Positions 25,098 through 32,947 of a stretch of 64,000 nucleotides of DNA are shown piece after piece (within the stretch, counting starts at the first letter, position 1; every line of letters starts with the position of its first letter). A program made the position numbers and the translations under genes. Below the pieces are notes generated by a model that did no database searches, had not been told where the DNA came from, and saw nothing but the letters and a program-made list of their open reading frames with translations. Origin of the DNA: Qipengyuania xiapuensis (GTDB lineage Bacteria; Pseudomonadota; Alphaproteobacteria; Sphingomonadales; Sphingomonadaceae); NCBI RefSeq assembly GCF_019711395.1, contig NZ_JAIGNL010000001.1, positions 744,001 to 808,000 on the forward strand, read 5' to 3'.

Positions 25098-25260
25098 GGA
25101 GAGTGTCCTTTCGTCAGCCCTCCCGTCGTATGGCTTATCAACGGCTTGACCGGGTCTGGGTTCCGAAAAGACGGCCGTTTAGCGCTCCTCGCGGCCACTC
25201 CGCGCGGCCTATACGTTTGCGTTATTGGACAAGCGTGAAATTGATGGCACATTGCCCGCA

Positions 25261-27222
25261 ATGGGGGATGTCTTCCTTTCCTATGCGCGGGCCGACCGGG
25301 AGCAGGCCGAGCGGCTGGCTGCCGAGATCGAGGCTGCCGGATATTCGGTCTGGTGGGATCGCCATATCGATGGCGGATCGGAATTTGCTGCAGAGATCGA
25401 ACGCCGGCTGGAAGAAGCCCAGGTCGTGCTTGTCCTCTGGTCCAAGGACGGTGTCGCATCGCGCTGGGTTCGCGACGAGGCCGGAATAGGTCTCGAAGCG
25501 GGCAAGCTGGTCGCGACGAGCCTCGACGGGACGCCTCCTCCGATAGGTTTCAAGCAGATCCATGCGATCGACATGACCGACGAGCGGGGACACTCGGACC
25601 TGCTGCGCGCTTTGGGTCACAGGCTCACGAGCCTGCCGGGAACGCCCGCCCCAGAAGTCGAACGACCGGCGGCCAACAGGGCGATCGCCATACTGATGGT
25701 AGCCATGGCTCTCGTTGTGGTTGCCGCGGGCTTCTGGTGGACCAACCGGTCCAGCGACAGCGAGGCCCTGGCCAGCGAACAGGCAAGCGAGCAGACCGGC
25801 GTCGCCGTCCTTCCCTTCCGGTCGCTGTCCGACGACGAGGACGACAAGTACTTCGCGGAAGGCGTTGCCGAGGAAATCCTCAACCGGCTCAGCGCACTCG
25901 CGGAACTCAGGGTCACCGCACGGTCCTCGAGTTTCCAGCTTGCCGGCACCGACCTGCCGGTCGGGGAGGTGGCGAAGCAGCTCGGCGTCACCCACCTCGT
26001 CGACGGTACGGTGCGCAGGAATGGCAATGACTGGCGGGTGACCGCGCAACTCGTCCGTGCGGAAGACGGTAGCCAGCTATGGAGCGATACCTATGATGTG
26101 ACCGGCTCCGACATCCTGGCGGTGCAATCGGAAATAGCCGAGCGTGCAGCCGAAGCTCTCGGCGTCCTGCTCGATGGCGACAAGCGGTCACGGATGGCCG
26201 AGGCGGGTATCGACAATCCCGAGGCCTATGCACTTTTCGCACGCGGCATGGAGCTGTTCGGCAAGGTGCACAACCAGGGCGCGACATACGAAAACCTTGC
26301 CGAGGCTAACGAGTATTTCGACCGTGCCTTCGCACTTGAACCACGGTTCTGGAACGCGCAGGTCGCGGCGATTGACCGCTTCAGCCATTTGCTGACCGAT
26401 CACAGTATCGGCTTCCCCGTGGGTGGGCCCGAAGTGGCTGAGGAAGCGCGGCTCGAGATCGAGCGCAGACTGGCCGCCGCGCGCGCCAATGCGCCACGTT
26501 GGGCATACGCCGTGCTCGACCAGCAGGCGATCCAGTATTCGAACGATTGGTCGGATGCGCGCGAAATCGTCGAGCGTATGCTGCGGGAGGAAAGCGGCTG
26601 CAGCGTGCTCACGAGCTACAACGACTGGCTGGTCATCCGGCTGGGCCTGGTCGACGAATACATCGACTATTCAAGGCGCCTCCAGAAATGCGACCCTCTC
26701 ACCAGCCGCACACCGCTCGTCGCCATGCTGATCTATTCGGGGAAAGTGGACGAGGCGATCGAGATCGCAGAGACGTCGGGCGACAATTCGGAAGCCATGC
26801 ACCGTATCCATGTGCTCGCGCTTGTCGCAGCAGGCCGTACGGAAGATGCACGCGAAGTGCTCGATCGCATGGACCCCCAAGCGTATTATCACGGGCAGGC
26901 GGAGACTTGGATACTTGCCGCCGAAGGCGACCGCGAGGGGCTGGAAAACCAATTCGAGAAATATCAGCAGCAGGGCGCCCCCGACGTTGCCCTGTTGCAC
27001 GTGGCGACGCTCATGGGCGACCGCGAGACAGCCAATAAATACGCGGCGCGGATCGATGCGCGGCCTGCCGGGCCGATCTGGTTTGCAAACAGCGGGATCG
27101 TTACCTGCCATTGCGGCAACGGCTTCGATCTCGATGCCACGCCGCGCTTCAAGGCCCGGCTGATCGAGGCCGGCGCCTCGCTCGATTTGCCATCGCCAGT
27201 CGACTGGCCGCTTCAGCGGTAG
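25261..27222 (+). CDS. Membrane-anchored TIR domain protein with TolB-like and TPR regions
   Basis: 653 residues from the ATG at 25261 (a TTG at 25225 would add 12). Order: TIR domain (1-120; 'GDVFLSYARADREQAERLA', 'GYSVWWDRHID', and Glu73 in 'SRWVRDEAG', a fair match to the catalytic Glu of TIR NADases), one transmembrane helix (about 141-160), a TolB/FlgO-like domain ('GVAVLPFRSLSDDEDDKYFAEGVAEEIL...HLVDGTVRRNGNDWRVTAQLV'), then a degenerate TPR array to the end. Similar TIR- or CadC-headed proteins are common in sphingomonads. The TIR head is predicted to be cytoplasmic and the sensor periplasmic. NADase activity is not assured. Confidence 0.8.
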   Translation: MGDVFLSYARADREQAERLAAEIEAAGYSVWWDRHIDGGSEFAAEIERRLEEAQVVLVLWSKDGVASRWVRDEAGIGLEAGKLVATSLDGTPPPIGFKQIHAIDMTDERGHSDLLRALGHRLTSLPGTPAPEVERPAANRAIAILMVAMALVVVAAGFWWTNRSSDSEALASEQASEQTGVAVLPFRSLSDDEDDKYFAEGVAEEILNRLSALAELRVTARSSSFQLAGTDLPVGEVAKQLGVTHLVDGTVRRNGNDWRVTAQLVRAEDGSQLWSDTYDVTGSDILAVQSEIAERAAEALGVLLDGDKRSRMAEAGIDNPEAYALFARGMELFGKVHNQGATYENLAEANEYFDRAFALEPRFWNAQVAAIDRFSHLLTDHSIGFPVGGPEVAEEARLEIERRLAAARANAPRWAYAVLDQQAIQYSNDWSDAREIVERMLREESGCSVLTSYNDWLVIRLGLVDEYIDYSRRLQKCDPLTSRTPLVAMLIYSGKVDEAIEIAETSGDNSEAMHRIHVLALVAAGRTEDAREVLDRMDPQAYYHGQAETWILAAEGDREGLENQFEKYQQQGAPDVALLHVATLMGDRETANKYAARIDARPAGPIWFANSGIVTCHCGNGFDLDATPRFKARLIEAGASLDLPSPVDWPLQR

Positions 27223-27225
27223 CGG

Positions 27226-27576
27226 CTATTCGTTGCGGGTGGCGATCCAGCTGCCGGCAATCACGAGGATGGCGACGGAAATCCAGTACCACGGGTATCC
27301 GAGGGTGAAGTAGGTCACCACCGCGCCGGTTGCCATGGCACCGATAGCCATTGTCTTTGCGCGGCGGCTGATCGCGCGGCGCTCGGTCCAGTCGCGGACC
27401 TGCGGGCCCCAAGTCGGGTGATCGAGGATCTTCTGCTCGAGCTCGGGGCTTGAGCGAGCGAAGAAGTATACCGCCAGCAGGAGGAAGGGGACGGTCGGCA
27501 TGATCGGAAGCGCTGCCCCGATCGCGCCAAGGCCCACGCTGATGAAGCCGAGGGCGCGGTAGACCGTCCGCTTCAT
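27226..27576 (-). CDS. DUF454 (YbaN-like) inner-membrane protein
   Basis: 116 residues with about four hydrophobic segments. It begins 'MKRTVYRALGFISVGLGAIGAALPIMPTVPFLLLA', the hallmark of the DUF454/YbaN family, followed by 'PELEQKILDHPTWGPQVRDW'. Function of the family is unknown. It starts one base after the sufE stop, so it is co-transcribed with sufE; it converges on the TIR gene with 3 bp between stops. Confidence 0.9.
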   Translation of the reverse strand: MKRTVYRALGFISVGLGAIGAALPIMPTVPFLLLAVYFFARSSPELEQKILDHPTWGPQVRDWTERRAISRRAKTMAIGAMATGAVVTYFTLGYPWYWISVAILVIAGSWIATRNE

Positions 27577-27577
27577 G

Positions 27578-27985
27578 TCAGCTGGCCGCGATCCTGGCAG
27601 CGTGATCCTTCACCAGCGCGATCATGTTGGGCACGCCCTGTGTCCGGTTGCTCGAAAGCTGGTTCTTCAGGTCGAACGGCTCGAGCGCTGCGTGGATGTC
27701 CATGCCGGCAACTTCCGCGGCGGCCTTGTCCTGCACGGCCGAGATCACGAGCGCGACGATGCCCTTGGTAATCGCGGCGTTGCTGTCGGCGAGGAAATGG
27801 AGCTTGCCGCTATCGCCCGTGGGATAGACCCAGACGCTGGCCGAGCAGCCGCGCACCAGCGTGGCGTCGGTCTTGAGCGCGTCGGGCATCTCGTCGAGCT
27901 CGCGGCCGAGTTCGATCAGCAGGCGATAACGCTCGTCGCCTTCGAGGAACTCGTATTCTTCTTGGATATCGGAGAGAGAACGCAT
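27578..27985 (-). CDS. sufE: Cysteine desulfuration protein SufE
   Basis: 135 residues, usual length. Cys47 in 'LVRGCSASVWV' is the sulfur-accepting residue and 'SNRTQGVPNMIALVKDHA' is the typical C-terminus. SufE takes persulfide sulfur from SufS for Fe-S cluster assembly. No other suf gene is nearby. It lies 43 bp downstream of the last gene of the expanded psp operon, on the same strand, and could receive read-through from it. Confidence 0.94.
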   Translation of the reverse strand: MRSLSDIQEEYEFLEGDERYRLLIELGRELDEMPDALKTDATLVRGCSASVWVYPTGDSGKLHFLADSNAAITKGIVALVISAVQDKAAAEVAGMDIHAALEPFDLKNQLSSNRTQGVPNMIALVKDHAARIAAS

Positions 27986-28028: not shown

Positions 28029-28205
28029 TCAGCCCATCAGCCCGCCGGGGCGGGTAAATGCATGGTAGATGACGTAAATCCAGCTGATAAAGCCGTGAAA
28101 TATGGCCCAGAGGATCGACTGGTTCTTGGTCCAGGAGATCGCGATGGCGATCGCGCTGCCCATGCCGATCCCGACCTTGGCGACTTCACCGCCGCGCTCG
28201 ATCAC
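28029..28205 (-). CDS. 58-residue two-helix membrane protein, last gene of the expanded psp operon
   Basis: GTG start at 28205 overlapping the previous gene's stop (GTGA), 58 residues. Two hydrophobic segments: 'GIGMGSAIAIAISW' and 'ILWAIFHGFISWIYVIYHAF', ending 'TRPGGLMG'. It has no coiled-coil motif, unlike its upstream neighbours. I do not recognise a family. The overlap, the clean membrane topology and the position in the operon support it as real. Confidence 0.7.
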   Translation of the reverse strand: MIERGGEVAKVGIGMGSAIAIAISWTKNQSILWAIFHGFISWIYVIYHAFTRPGGLMG

Positions 28206-28438
28206 AGGTCGACCCCGCTGGCGATGGCCTCGAGCTTCTTGATGCGCTCTTTCAGGTCGGCGAGCTCGATGCGCGCTGCGCCCATCGACGAGCCTTCTTC
28301 CTGCCGCGGGCCGGAATGCTCTTCCAGCTCACGCCGCTTGAGGTCAAGCCAGCCCTGCCAGCCGCGCAGCATGGCGGCAGCCACGATGACCAGCCCGGTC
28401 AGGCTTGCCGCTGCAATGATCATTGTCGGTTCGAACAT
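28202..28438 (-). CDS. PspB-like small membrane/coiled-coil protein (array member 6)
   Basis: 78 residues. N-terminal transmembrane helix ('MIIAAASLTGLVIVAAAML'), a basic/Trp segment ('RGWQGWLDLKRR'), then a short coiled coil 'ELADLKERIKKLEAIAS' that matches the shared 'L..R...LE.I' motif of this array and of PspB. It is the shortest and most divergent coiled-coil member: the 'D..Y...EI..LRD' extension is missing. Follows member 5 after 33 bp and is coupled to the 58-residue gene downstream. Confidence 0.75.
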   Translation of the reverse strand: MFEPTMIIAAASLTGLVIVAAAMLRGWQGWLDLKRRELEEHSGPRQEEGSSMGAARIELADLKERIKKLEAIASGVDL

Positions 28439-28471
28439 TTCCCCATGTCCTCCTTGAACCAGTGCCTATCC

Positions 28472-28768
28472 CTATTCGCCTTTGCCGGGCTGCTTGTCGC
28501 GCAGCGCCTCGATCTCGGCGGATATTCTCTTCGTTTCCTGCGCATCGAGCGAGTTGCCGTCGGTGGCGATACGCTCGAGCACCTTGATGCGCTCACGCAG
28601 GTCCTCGATTTCATGCTCGGTCTCGGCATCGCGTAGCGCATTGCCGAAGCTTTCCTTGCCGGTCTCATCCACGATGATGCCGCGCTCCGCGCGGTGGCGG
28701 GCCTTGACCATCTGGACCACGCCCCACACCACGATGGCGACGACTGCGACGATGGCCCATCCACTCAC
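28472..28768 (-). CDS. PspB-like small membrane/coiled-coil protein (array member 5)
   Basis: 98 residues, GTG start overlapping the stop of member 4 (GTGA). Transmembrane helix at 3-20 ('WAIVAVVAIVVWGVVQMV'), then charged coiled coil 'IEDLRERIKVLERIATDGN' and 'ISAEIEALRDKQ'. An 11-residue insert separates the two halves of the shared motif. The same topology as PspB (short periplasmic end, one helix, cytoplasmic coiled coil) suggests an interaction with PspA or PspC; that is inference. Confidence 0.8.
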   Translation of the reverse strand: MSGWAIVAVVAIVVWGVVQMVKARHRAERGIIVDETGKESFGNALRDAETEHEIEDLRERIKVLERIATDGNSLDAQETKRISAEIEALRDKQPGKGE

Positions 28769-29070
28769 GATGCCGGCTCCCGCTTGTCCTCGACCGCGTC
28801 GAGGGCGCGCAGTTCGTCAATCTGCGAGGCGAGCGCATGGTTGCTGTCGGTCGCGATGCGTTCGAGTACCCGGAGGCGCTCCTCCATCTTGGAGTAGTCG
28901 CCCTTCTGGAAGCGGGCCTGTTCGGCGCGTGCCTGCTCGATCTGTGCCTTGAGTTCGAGCTTGCGCTCGTCGGCACGGATCTGACTGCGATGGATCAGGA
29001 TGCCCGTCACCATGCCAAGGCTGGCGATGGTCAGGATGAACCCGAAAATGAGTATAAGATCGGCGTCCAT
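28765..29070 (-). CDS. PspB-like small membrane/coiled-coil protein (array member 4)
   Basis: 101 residues. Transmembrane helix at about 5-27 ('LILIFGFILTIASLGMVTGI'), a long Glu/Lys/Gln/Ala-rich coiled coil ('RKLELKAQIEQARAEQARF'), then the array motif 'MEERLRVLERIATDSN' followed by 'ASQIDELRALD'. It starts with one base overlapping the stop of member 3 and ends overlapping the GTG of member 5. Confidence 0.8.
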   Translation of the reverse strand: MDADLILIFGFILTIASLGMVTGILIHRSQIRADERKLELKAQIEQARAEQARFQKGDYSKMEERLRVLERIATDSNHALASQIDELRALDAVEDKREPAS

Positions 29071-29381
29071 CAGTTTGCCTCCGACTTGTCACGCAGGCGA
29101 TCGATTTCGCTAGTGAGGTGGTAGCCGCTGTCGGTCACGATGCGCTCGACATTGCCGAGGCGATCCTTGAGCGAACCGAGTTCGGCACGCAGTTCGGCGT
29201 TTTCCTGGGTGAGCAGCTTTACGCGCTCCACCGCCTGGTCGTTCTTCGGGTAGACGGCCTTGCCCCAGCTGTTTTCCAGCGGGTAGCCGTTCTTGATCCG
29301 AAGCCAGGTGTTTACGATCCAGCCGCCGGTCATGATCGCAACACCTGCAATGATCGCGGTTTCGGAAAGAAATTCCATCAT
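29070..29381 (-). CDS. PspB-like small membrane/coiled-coil protein (array member 3)
   Basis: 103 residues. Hydrophobic helix at about 8-28 ('AIIAGVAIMTGGWIVNTWLR'), a segment 'IKNGYPLENSWGK' shared with member 2 ('AKHGYSLEDEWGG'), then coiled coil and motif 'LKDRLGNVERIVTDSGYHLT' ending 'EIDRLRDKSEAN'. The shared segment and motif show that members 2 and 3 are close paralogues. ATGA overlap with member 2. Confidence 0.82.
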   Translation of the reverse strand: MMEFLSETAIIAGVAIMTGGWIVNTWLRIKNGYPLENSWGKAVYPKNDQAVERVKLLTQENAELRAELGSLKDRLGNVERIVTDSGYHLTSEIDRLRDKSEAN

Positions 29382-29707
29382 GCCTTCTCCGAGGTCTTGA
29401 TATCGAGCGGCACGCCGGTGCCGGTGTCGCGCAGGGCTTCGATCTCGTCGCTGAGTGAGTAGCCGCGATCGGTGACGATCTTCTCGAGCACGATCATGCG
29501 GTCCTGCATGGAGTCGAGCTTGTCATGCAGTTCGCGGTTTTCCTCGCGCAGGCGCTTGGTTTCCGCGCTGTCGCTGCGCTCGGTCTTGCCGCCCCACTCG
29601 TCTTCGAGCGAGTAGCCGTGCTTGGCGCGGATCCAGTTGTTGATCAGCCAGCCAGCCGTGCTGAGCGCCACGATGGCGATGACAAAGGAGGGGCCACCCC
29701 AGTCCAT
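29378..29707 (-). CDS. PspB-like small membrane/coiled-coil protein (array member 2)
   Basis: 109 residues. One helix at about 6-26 ('SFVIAIVALSTAGWLINNWI'), 'AKHGYSLEDEWGG', then coiled coil and motif 'MQDRMIVLEKIVTDRGYSLS' / 'EIEALRDTG'. The C-terminus 'GVPLDIKTSEKA' is nearly the same as that of member 1 ('GVPLDIKQGEKA'), a sign of recent duplication or shared binding function. Start overlaps the stop of member 1 by one base (TAATG). Confidence 0.83.
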   Translation of the reverse strand: MDWGGPSFVIAIVALSTAGWLINNWIRAKHGYSLEDEWGGKTERSDSAETKRLREENRELHDKLDSMQDRMIVLEKIVTDRGYSLSDEIEALRDTGTGVPLDIKTSEKA

Positions 29708-30012
29708 TATGCTTTTTCTCCCTGTTTGATATCGAGCGGCACGCCGCTGCCCTTTTCTTCGACCTGGCGCTGGTCACGCAGCGCCTCGATCTGAGTGGCA
29801 ACGTCGTAGCCCTTGTCGGTCACGATGCGCTCCAGCACCTGGACTCGGTCTTCGAGCTGCTGCACCCGGCTGGCGTATTGCGCGGCCTTTTCGGAACTCG
29901 CTTCGGCGGTGGCCGAGATGCGCTTTTCCTCGAGCTTGCGCTGGTTCACCAGGTAGATGATGCCCAGAACCATGATGAAGGGTGCAAGCGGGATCAGTAT
30001 TGCCAGATCCAT
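29707..30012 (-). CDS. PspB-like small membrane/coiled-coil protein (array member 1)
   Basis: 101 residues. N-terminal transmembrane helix ('AILIPLAPFIMVLGIIYLV'), basic 'NQRKLEEKR', coiled coil with motif 'LEDRVQVLERIVTDKGYDVA' and 'QIEALRDQRQ', and C-terminal 'GVPLDIKQGEKA'. Begins 24 bp after pspC. In PspB itself the matching stretch is 'LDDRMDTVERLVASDN', so the similarity lies in the cytoplasmic coiled coil. Confidence 0.83.
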   Translation of the reverse strand: MDLAILIPLAPFIMVLGIIYLVNQRKLEEKRISATAEASSEKAAQYASRVQQLEDRVQVLERIVTDKGYDVATQIEALRDQRQVEEKGSGVPLDIKQGEKA

Positions 30013-30036
30013 GGTCTTTCCTCCCCTCTTCGCGGC

Positions 30037-30414
30037 TTAGCGCAGGCGCTCGATTTCGGCGTTCAGGCGCGGGTTGTTGCTGACGTAGAAGGTCTCGACG
30101 TCGGCCAGGCGGCGATCGATGTCCTTCATGCGGCTGCGGATTTCGCGAGCGGTGCGCTTCGGGTTCTGGCGCACGCCCTGCCAGTACTTCTGCTCGGCAG
30201 GCTCCGAATAGAGATGCGCGGGCTTCTTGTTCAGCAGCAGGCCGGCGAGGAAGTAGAACGGGATGGTCGAGCCGCCGGTCATGAACGTCAGGCCGAGGAA
30301 GCCGAGGCGAACCCAGAAGGCATCGACGCCGGTATAGTCGGCGATGCCCGAGCACACGCCCATCAGCTTCGCATTGCTCTTGTCGCGATAGAGGGTCGTA
30401 CGGGGGGAGTTCAC
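30037..30414 (-). CDS. pspC: Phage shock protein C
   Basis: 125 residues. The PspC domain (about 8-67) has 'TTLYRDKSNAKLMGVCSGIADYTGVDAFWVRLGFL' followed by a second hydrophobic stretch. The C-terminal cytoplasmic part holds a coiled coil, 'RMKDIDRRLADVETFYVSNN...NAEIERLR', that echoes the motif of the neighbouring small proteins. PspC senses envelope stress with PspB and draws PspA to the membrane. ATGA overlap with pspB. Confidence 0.94.
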   Translation of the reverse strand: MNSPRTTLYRDKSNAKLMGVCSGIADYTGVDAFWVRLGFLGLTFMTGGSTIPFYFLAGLLLNKKPAHLYSEPAEQKYWQGVRQNPKRTAREIRSRMKDIDRRLADVETFYVSNNPRLNAEIERLR

Positions 30415-30707
30415 TTCGAGGCTCCTTTCTTCTCGGAAATCAGCTGTTCGAGTTCGCGCAGCTGCTGGTTGTCCTGCTCGCTGTCATGGACGAGGCGTGC
30501 GGGACGGAAATCGGGGTTATCGGAAGCGACCAGGCGCTCGACAGTGTCCATGCGGTCATCGAGGCGCTTGGCGAGGTTGTAGAGTTCCTCCAGCAGCGCT
30601 TCGTCATCGGTGGTGATGGTGGCCGAGGTCTTCCACTTCGTGATGTAGTGGAGAATGATCCACGGCAGCGCGATGAAAATCGATACGATTGCAAAAATCT
30701 CGTCCAC
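30411..30707 (-). CDS. pspB: Phage shock protein B
   Basis: 98 residues. A single N-terminal helix 'IFAIVSIFIALPWIILHYITKW', then the cytoplasmic leucine-zipper region 'ALLEELYNLAKRLDDRMDTVERLVASDN', which is the PspB signature. The C-terminal 30 residues (Gln/Glu/Lys-rich) make it longer than the E. coli protein (about 74 residues). Lies 3 bp after pspA and overlaps pspC. Confidence 0.93.
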   Translation of the reverse strand: MDEIFAIVSIFIALPWIILHYITKWKTSATITTDDEALLEELYNLAKRLDDRMDTVERLVASDNPDFRPARLVHDSEQDNQQLRELEQLISEKKGASK

Positions 30708-30710
30708 GGA

Positions 30711-31400
30711 TCAGTCCTCTTTCTTGGCGCTGTCCTTACCGAGCGCCTTCTTCATCTGTTCAAGTTCGTCGTCGATCGCATCGGCACCTTCGAGGGCAGC
30801 GATTTCGTCGGCGAGGCTGGGCTTTTCCTTGCCATCGGTGATGGCGAGGGCGTCGGCACGGCCTTCGGCGTAGTCGACGCGGCGTTCGAGCTGGTCGAAG
30901 CGGCTGAGCGCGTCGTCGACCCGGTCTTCGGTCATCAGCGTGCGCAGTTTAACACGGTTTTCCGCGCTCTCGAGACGCGCCGCGATGGCGGTCTGGCGGC
31001 TGCGGGCTTCGCGCAGGCGGTTCTGCAGCTTCTGGATGTCCTGTTCGTAGGCGCGCAGCGCATCGTCGAGCACTGCGATTTCCTGCTTGAGCTGGTCGGC
31101 CATGTCGCCGGCCTTTTTCTTCTCGACCAGGGCTGCACGGGCCAGGTCTTCGCGGTCCTTCGACAGCGCGAGCTGTGCCTTCTCGCCCCAGTCTGCCTGG
31201 AGCTTGTCCAGCTTGACGGTGTGGCGGTGCATTTCCTTCTGGTCGGCGATGGTGCGTGCGGCACTCGCGCGGACCTCGACCAGCGTTTCCTCCATTTCGA
31301 GGATGATCATGCGGATCATCTTCTGCGGATCGTCCGCCTTGTCGAGCATGTCATTGAAGTTGGCCGCGATGATGTCACGGGTACGGCTGAAGATTCCCAT
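30711..31400 (-). CDS. pspA: Phage shock protein A
   Basis: 229 residues from the ATG at 31400, almost entirely coiled coil, with the family start 'MGIFSRTRDIIAANFNDMLDKADDPQKMIRMIILEMEETL'. PspA is an ESCRT-III-like membrane-repair protein that binds PspF in unstressed cells and moves to the membrane under stress. GGAG lies 8 bases before the ATG. The frame stays open upstream to a GTG at 31607 that overlaps the previous gene's stop, so a 298-residue form with a 69-residue N-terminal extension could also be made. The normal start fits the family better. Confidence 0.95.
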   Translation of the reverse strand: MGIFSRTRDIIAANFNDMLDKADDPQKMIRMIILEMEETLVEVRASAARTIADQKEMHRHTVKLDKLQADWGEKAQLALSKDREDLARAALVEKKKAGDMADQLKQEIAVLDDALRAYEQDIQKLQNRLREARSRQTAIAARLESAENRVKLRTLMTEDRVDDALSRFDQLERRVDYAEGRADALAITDGKEKPSLADEIAALEGADAIDDELEQMKKALGKDSAKKED

Positions 31401-31607
31401 CAAAGGTGCTCCACTAGAGAAAAAGTCGGCGGCGCGCTGGCCTGTGTCCTTGGTCGGCGTCGGCGAACGACGGAGCCGTTCTACCTCGCTATCGAGCCGC
31501 GACAAGGTTACGCGGTTGGGGCGGGCCGAAGCGTCCTTGCGCGATGAAGCGCGGGGGGGACTGTCGGGAGTAGAACGCTCCGGCCCGAGGGGATCGAAAT
31601 TGCTCAC
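31401..31607 (-). other. In-frame upstream extension of pspA
   Basis: From the GTG at 31607 (overlapping the previous stop as GTGA) there is no stop before the pspA ATG. The 69 extra residues are basic, Pro/Ser/Arg-rich, with one helix-like segment 'LSRLDSEVERLRRS'. It may be a translated N-terminal extension of PspA or simply untranslated spacer that is open by chance; codon use does not decide. Confidence 0.4.
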
Positions 31608-31756
31608 GCGATCTCCACATGATCGATCGATGCCACCAGCGGCATCGGGGTGGTAACCGCAATCTGTGAGCTCAAGGCGACGAATGCCGTCATCATTGCG
31701 ATGCTGGCGAGGGCTGCCTTGCCGAGTTGGGTGCTGAAGAACTTGCGGTCGTACAT
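31604..31756 (-). CDS. 50-residue membrane/exported protein, first gene of the psp operon
   Basis: 50 residues from the ATG at 31756, preceded by an excellent ribosome-binding site (GGGAGGA, 5 bases upstream). Basic N-terminus 'MYDRKFFSTQLGKA', then one hydrophobic helix 'ALASIAMMTAFVALSSQIAV' and a short tail. It starts about 30 bases downstream of the predicted sigma-54 transcription start. A longer in-frame start at 31813 would overlap the promoter and was rejected. It resembles no family known to me, but its position makes it a stress-induced small protein. Confidence 0.75.
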   Translation of the reverse strand: MYDRKFFSTQLGKAALASIAMMTAFVALSSQIAVTTPMPLVASIDHVEIA

Positions 31757-31797
31757 GGTGTCCTCCCTGGACTGAAACTGTTGTTGTCCCATGTTCA

Positions 31798-31812
31798 GCA
31801 AGCAGTGTGCCA
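31798..31812 (-). promoter_or_regulatory. Sigma-54 promoter of the psp operon
   Basis: On the minus strand TGGCACA-CTGC-TTGCT (-24 TGGCAC at 31812-31807, -12 TTGC at 31801-31798) is a near-exact sigma-54 consensus. Transcription should begin near 31787. The divergent pspF gene encodes the matching activator. PspF binding sites should lie in 31813-31880, which is AT-rich. Confidence 0.88.
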
Positions 31813-31912: not shown

Positions 31913-32947
31913 ATGGAGCGGGAAAATCAGTTTCTCGGGCAGTCAGGCGCCTTCCTCGATGCGGTCGAGCGGACCAGCCGTGCGGCCCCCATGCGCAGGC
32001 CCGTGCTGGTTATCGGCGAGCGCGGTACCGGCAAGGAGCTGATTGCCGAACGCCTGCATCGCCTGTCGACCCGTTGGGACGAGCCTCTCGTCACTATGAA
32101 CTGCGCCGCGCTCCCCGAAACGCTGATTGAGGCGGAGCTGTTCGGCCACGAGGCCGGGGCATTCACGGGTGCTACCAAACAACGCGCCGGAAGGTTCGAG
32201 GAAGCCGACAAGGGCACTCTATTCCTCGACGAACTGGGTACTTTGTCGATGGGCGCACAAGAACGCCTGTTGCGCGCCGTCGAATATGGCGAGGTCACCC
32301 GCATCGGTTCCTCTCGCCCGATCCGTGTCGACGTTCGCATCGTGGCGGCGACCAATGAGGATTTGCCCGCCAAGGCGGAGCGCGGCGAATTCCGCGCCGA
32401 CCTGCTCGACCGGCTGAGTTTCGAGGTCATTACCTTGCCGCCGCTGCGCGTGCGCGAAGGCGATATCGAGGTGCTGGCAGACTATTTCGGGCGCCGCATG
32501 GGCGCAGAGCTCGGCTGGGAAGCCTGGCCCGGTTTCGCCGATCACGTGGCCGAAGAACTGGAGAACCACCAGTGGCCGGGCAATGTGCGCGAGCTGCGCA
32601 ACGTGGTCGAGCGCGCGGTCTATCGCTGGGACGACTGGAGCGCGCCCATCGGGCATGTCGTGTTCGATCCCTTCGACAGCCCGTGGAAGCCGGTGTCGAT
32701 GCCGTCCTCGCGTCCGAAGGCGGAGCAACCTGCGGCCCAGCCGGCGCCTGCCGCCGCGGCCACGCCCGATCTCGAGCATGTCGACGATCTCAAGGCGGCA
32801 GTCGAGGAGCACGAGCGCGCCATCGTCGAGCACGCACTCGGCAAGCATCGCTGGAACCAGCGCCAGACCGCCAAGGCGCTCGGCCTTAGCTACGACCAGC
32901 TGCGCCACTGCATCAAGAAGCATGGATTGATGGAAGAGGCCGAGTAG
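31913..32947 (+). CDS. pspF: PspF, sigma-54-dependent activator of the psp operon
   Basis: 344 residues. No N-terminal receiver domain; the AAA+ domain begins almost at once. Walker A 'GERGTGKE' (35-42), the sigma-54 contact loop GAFTGA (82-87), 'GTLFLDELG' and 'GNVRELRNVVER' are all present. A Pro/Ala linker leads to a Fis-type helix-turn-helix ('RWNQRQTAKALGLSYDQLRHCIKKHGL'). This is the PspF layout, held inactive by PspA. Divergent from the psp operon and its sigma-54 promoter. The start at 31913 was chosen over 31877, which falls in the promoter. Confidence 0.95.
   Translation: MERENQFLGQSGAFLDAVERTSRAAPMRRPVLVIGERGTGKELIAERLHRLSTRWDEPLVTMNCAALPETLIEAELFGHEAGAFTGATKQRAGRFEEADKGTLFLDELGTLSMGAQERLLRAVEYGEVTRIGSSRPIRVDVRIVAATNEDLPAKAERGEFRADLLDRLSFEVITLPPLRVREGDIEVLADYFGRRMGAELGWEAWPGFADHVAEELENHQWPGNVRELRNVVERAVYRWDDWSAPIGHVVFDPFDSPWKPVSMPSSRPKAEQPAAQPAPAAAATPDLEHVDDLKAAVEEHERAIVEHALGKHRWNQRQTAKALGLSYDQLRHCIKKHGLMEEAE

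Follow-up and report, generated by a model that had tools for sequence, protein, structure and literature searches.

How PspB and PspC relay the stress signal to PspA is a question on which the locus described here may bear. In Escherichia coli, residues 69–119 of PspC together with PspB bind PspA and induce psp (PMC3068692), and in Yersinia the C-terminal cytoplasmic domain of PspC binds PspA in the on state (PMC5596341). The survey of Ravi et al. (2024) views the tail of PspC as a PspB domain that has diverged and reports 'PspB duplicates' in psp operons, with AOL22920.1 as an example (PMC11237479). These duplicates resemble the genes of our locus in being extra PspB-like genes within a pspF/pspABC operon, but the accessible portion of the survey gives them a single clause, without copy number, lineage, solitary relatives or mechanism. 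Our searches of the psp literature found no description of a six-copy array, of its relatives or of a match to the PspC tail, and no psp study in sphingomonads. Given this partial precedent and the lack of sphingomonad psp studies among the literature found, the operon appears from its sequence to be a new, well-conserved variant of the known psp operon, for which a plausible mechanism can be proposed.

The window, a stretch of 64,000 nucleotides from Qipengyuania xiapuensis, carries the operon on its minus strand in the order leader ORF, pspA, pspB, pspC, six array genes (b1–b6) and a gene for a 58-aa protein, with pspF running in the opposite direction. The divergent sigma-54 activator gene pspF spans 31913–32947 on the plus strand (TIGR02974, 478.9 bits against a cut-off of 443.55). 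From its canonical start, MGIFSR, pspA occupies 30711–31400 (PF04012, 9.4e-37) and is contiguous with the single-copy pspB at 30411–30707 (TIGR02976, 92.0 bits, cut-off 51.7) and with pspC at 30037–30414 (TIGR02978, 122.2 bits, cut-off 104), whose residues 66–125 form a C-terminal domain resembling the array proteins; all four Psp products lie above the curated cut-offs of Pfam or NCBIfam. The array follows on the same strand with b1 (101 aa, 29707–30012), b2 (109 aa, 29378–29707), b3 (103 aa, 29070–29381), b4 (101 aa, 28765–29070), b5 (98 aa, 28472–28768) and b6 (78 aa, 28202–28438). The run ends, as first described, with a 58-aa protein that has two predicted membrane helices (28029–28205, minus strand) and occurs in 42 family members; neither a Pfam search nor profile comparison with the array gave a match, so it is not counted as an array homologue. 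The first-pass annotation had the coordinates and identities of these genes right and their number wrong: it listed ten, and there are eleven ORFs because a 50-aa leader ORF with one predicted membrane helix (31604–31756, minus strand) precedes pspA.

A single sigma-54 promoter had been proposed for the whole run, and the sequence bears this out. The site TGGCACACTGCTTGCT (31797–31812, minus strand) matches the -24/-12 consensus TGGCAC-N5-TTGCT exactly. The window has no second exact site on this strand, the whole genome has four, and 65 of 74 relatives tested have kept the site upstream of the operon; RpoN is encoded in the genome. Neighbouring genes share 1 or 4 bases or are separated by gaps of 24–33 bases, and each array gene is preceded by a purine-rich stretch resembling a ribosome site. 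The operon genes are, on this layout, predicted to be translationally coupled, and layout and coupling together predict their co-transcription. Between promoter and pspA sits the leader ORF, which has no Pfam match, was recovered at 64 of the 80 related loci, follows the pattern MYxRxFFxxxLGxAAxAS... and in most relatives ends in VEIA or VELA. Downstream of the array, sufE and a DUF454 gene lie on the same strand (27226–27985). As sufE is found no more than 200 bases from the array in 64 of the 80 loci, the psp transcript may continue into Fe-S cluster genes. Farther downstream, and convergent with the operon, lies the gene of a 665-aa protein (25225–27222, plus strand). It has a TIR domain at the N-terminus (PF13676, 1.2e-23) and a membrane helix, and its TPR matches are weak.

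Do the six small proteins belong to one family? They had been said to share an N-terminal membrane helix followed by the pattern L..R...LE.I.TD, which is true of b1–b5 and only partly of b6, where the first half of the motif alone is present. Among 56 aligned b1–b5 sequences the R, E, I, L and R positions are invariant and the I/T/D positions nearly so. Two finer likenesses noticed earlier, the 'GvPL' tail common to b1 and b2 and the GY.LE..WG segment common to b2 and b3, are each conserved across about 80 loci. The b1–b5 family HMMs detect one another at 1e-6 to 1e-30, profile comparison of b1–b5 and their solitary relatives gives pairwise values of 96.7–99.8%, and b6 reaches 93–95% against b4, b5 and the solitary family (hhalign). 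Searched against the whole genome, a profile of b4 and its relatives recovers only the six array ORFs at E ≤ 1e-3. By these profile matches, b1–b5 are one homologous family, of which b6 is a divergent, truncated member. A search of PDB sequences with the array and solitary alignments returned generic coiled coils only, nothing convincing. The single-chain AF2 models, of moderate confidence, place helices at residues 3–31 and 48–102 of b3 (pLDDT 69) and at 85–112 and 115–124 of the PspC tail; the pairing in b3 of a membrane helix with a long helix is weakly consistent with a module shared with that tail.

That PspB and the PspC C-terminus carry the same pattern was also proposed at the outset, and broad profiles agree. 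The broad PspB profile matches the combined array at 90.7% over about 21 columns and the solitary relatives at 94.4%; the broad profile of the PspC C-terminal domain matches the array at 95.8% over 43 columns, reaching the last PspC residue. The controls FtsB and AtpF, real membrane-plus-coiled-coil proteins of the same bacterial family, and the 58-aa protein give at most 10% in the same comparison, and b6 alone gives 3% against broad PspB. The best match to the PspC tail is b3 (95.1% against its own PspC, 95.9% against the broad profile, hhalign), and the end-to-end match to the tail profile was found for b1–b5 and not for b6. A narrow PspB profile built from close relatives stays below 10% against each array member, within control noise; this result is misleading by itself, hence the need for broader profiles. 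In the curated PspB models b1 comes closest, with scores below the cut-off (20.6 of 25.6 in Pfam; 27.1 of 51.7 bits, 3.7e-6, in NCBIfam), and b2–b6 score lower or not at all. None of the array proteins matches the PspC domain PF04024 in Pfam; matches of several array and solitary members to the NCBIfam PspC model finish at its last position. In several whole genomes, those of Gammaproteobacteria included, the profile of b4 and its relatives ranks the relatives first, and after them comes PspB or the PspC tail; in the E. coli proteome of 4,300 proteins PspB is matched at 1.3e-4 and PspC weakly, with E between 0.06 and 2.

On these profiles the array is a true, if distant, homologue of PspB, and it matches the PspC tail more fully; the matched part is a short helical module, and the link is one of profiles, not of pairwise identity. 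Like PspB (PF06667/TIGR02976), the array proteins have one N-terminal membrane helix, a place in the psp operon, a similar size and a cytoplasmic helix with an R..x(V/L)E(R/K)(I/L) core; unlike PspB, they lack HY.TKWK, score below its cut-offs, have only about 21 columns in common with it and fall outside its branch. With the PspC C-terminal cytoplasmic domain (the end of TIGR02978) they align over about 43 columns and have the same EIxxLR end residues, although PF04024 is absent from them and each has its own single membrane helix. A widespread, unannotated small-protein family forms a link between PspB and the tail of PspC, domains whose direct comparison gives no match (6.8%).

The array is a constant feature of related loci. 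In all 80 relatives retrieved with b2 as query it is present, in 5–9 copies with a mode of 6 (5 copies in 20 loci, 6 in 37, 7 in 18, 8 in 4 and 9 in 1), and the gene order is stable: pspB-pspC-b1-b2-b3-(variable b4 type)-b5-b6. The b1–b6 types are kept as distinct orthologues across the 80 loci, which argues for specialisation. Third-codon-position bias is 0.54–0.62 in every array gene and similar to that of pspB (0.59) and pspC (0.57), so the array ORFs are proteins under codon-level selection.

Could the similarity be no more than that of generic coiled coils, in small membrane proteins without kinship that stand behind pspC by chance? The proteins are indeed short and helical, and individual Pfam matches include unrelated coiled coils. 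However, when the window's 753 six-frame segments are ranked with a profile drawn solely from relatives beyond the window's family, exactly the six array ORFs come out on top, with E-values from 3e-16 to 1.4e-5 (the latter for b6) and PspB seventh at 0.002. FtsB and AtpF fail as they should, with at most 31% in the profile comparison of the family members, and the synteny holds at every related locus. Such an origin is already contradicted by these sequence data and we consider it extremely improbable, so that the first-pass annotation was right to see more than heptads. Its further proposal, that PspB was duplicated several times to give alternative sensors or adaptors for PspA and PspC, perhaps for different stresses, has fared worse, and we now think it unlikely. 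The real if distant homology to PspB speaks for it, as do the common topology and the mention of 'PspB duplicates' in the part of the 2024 survey available (PMC11237479), but true PspB is single-copy in the genomes sampled, and both solitary genes and the PspC tail lie closer to b1–b5 than PspB does. In a tree built from 41 columns only, hence of limited resolution, PspB stands alone on a fully supported branch (100/100) apart from all others, b2 is the sister of b3, b5 joins b6, and single-copy b-type genes of psp operons mix with solitary copies. The closest relatives of b1–b5, at 97.9–99.4%, are those solitary genes, which other Alpha- and Gammaproteobacteria carry outside psp operons and to which b4 is the nearest type. 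Their products (73–100 aa) have the membrane helix and the pattern LEERV.VLERI.TD...L..EI..L in common with the array, but their genes number one or two and lie away from psp operons, adjoining rpoD for example. Their surroundings are rpoD-adjacent in one family and otherwise mixed; this absence of a common context gives no functional clue and means that PspA binding need not be general for the module. With solitary genes as nearest kin, a fuller match to the PspC tail and a separate PspB branch, we read the array, at the modest resolution of the tree, as a separate small-protein family recruited to the psp operon and amplified there, rather than as the product of repeated PspB duplication.

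What would such a recruited family do? Since the homologous PspC tail acts on PspA, we infer that the array proteins may be membrane-anchored PspA-docking modules. The operon would then be a PspF/sigma-54-controlled psp operon with amplified PspC-type docking modules that act as hetero-oligomer partners, a reading that we hold with about even confidence. Each array protein would combine an N-terminal membrane helix with a helical module in the cytoplasm that corresponds to the C-terminal domain of PspC. Upon envelope stress PspF would drive the operon, and the array would anchor many PspC-tail-like modules at the inner surface of the membrane. There they would bind PspA, either by themselves or in mixed coiled coils with PspB and PspC; PspA would thereby be held at the membrane for repair and away from PspF. 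The gain would be extra capacity for PspA recruitment, for anti-repression or for both upon induction, and the distinct copies would be specialised hetero-oligomer partners instead of redundant repeats. The resemblance of five to nine small proteins to the PspC tail suggests many extra docking points for a membrane-repair protein; PspA binding by this module is known for PspC only and would extend to the array by likeness. The case of b6, in which the second half of the module is missing, speaks against this reading. Alternatively, the array proteins could be effectors or parts of a scaffold, for example nucleating PspA rods or forming mixed membrane rafts, with no part in PspF regulation. By its layout the array would be made only downstream of PspF, distinct conserved types would suit a scaffold, and Yersinia PspB and PspC protect cells apart from regulation (PMC9239133); as the E. 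coli counterpart of the module is tied both to PspA binding and to psp induction (PMC3068692), we regard this as a tentative possibility. If the array proteins are PspA-docking modules, a PspA-binding tail multiplied as separate proteins would provide natural variants for testing whether docking capacity or sensing sets the response. The array may also bear on the stress tolerance of sphingomonads, which are used in bioremediation.

PspA itself may differ from the canonical form in this lineage. Its frame stays open upstream as far as a GTG start that overlaps the stop of the leader ORF, adding a predicted in-frame N-terminal extension of 69 residues (31401–31607, minus strand) with a third-position bias of 0.50. 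The extension has a motif, SRLDxE(V/I)ExLRxSPTPT (here SRLDxEVERLRRSPTPT), conserved in most close relatives, where the frame is likewise open; over 11 columns it matches the PspC tail at 89.7% with narrow profiles and at 43% with broad ones. Within the family, only the Erythrobacter-like part has the extension with its motif. That the array needs the extension as its partner was rejected as a general rule, since in most of the wider family the array occurs and the motif does not. A more speculative and rather improbable scheme has a rewired switch in sphingomonads, in which a hetero-oligomer of PspC-tail modules would compete with PspF for PspA, and the 'RLxxEIExLR' copy in the Erythrobacter-like extension would set PspA self-binding against docking to the array.

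Beyond the 80 loci, 198 genomes of the order were searched. The window's family accounted for 114 of the matching genomes, a figure counted by hand from the table, and all but five of them, hence at least 109, gave a minimum of three matches; other families of the order mostly have one or two, and a class-level search found matches in only 12 of 385 genomes. Shortened arrays occur within the window's family as pspA-B-C-b or pspA-B-C-b-b6, and one member genome (G053, L165:3806-5407) has pspA-pspC-b1-b4-type genes with no pspB found in the genome and no pspF at the locus. Sister families encode the b-type protein in a solitary gene, beside rpoD for instance, but in one of them a single b-type gene ends a pspA-pspB-pspC-pspC2 operon; at the sister-family loci L153, L155, L160 and L169 a second short PspC-domain gene (75–84 aa) follows pspC, and one array-type gene comes after it. 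In a gammaproteobacterium (L306:2468-3017), two solitary genes of the array type stand in tandem outside the psp operon.
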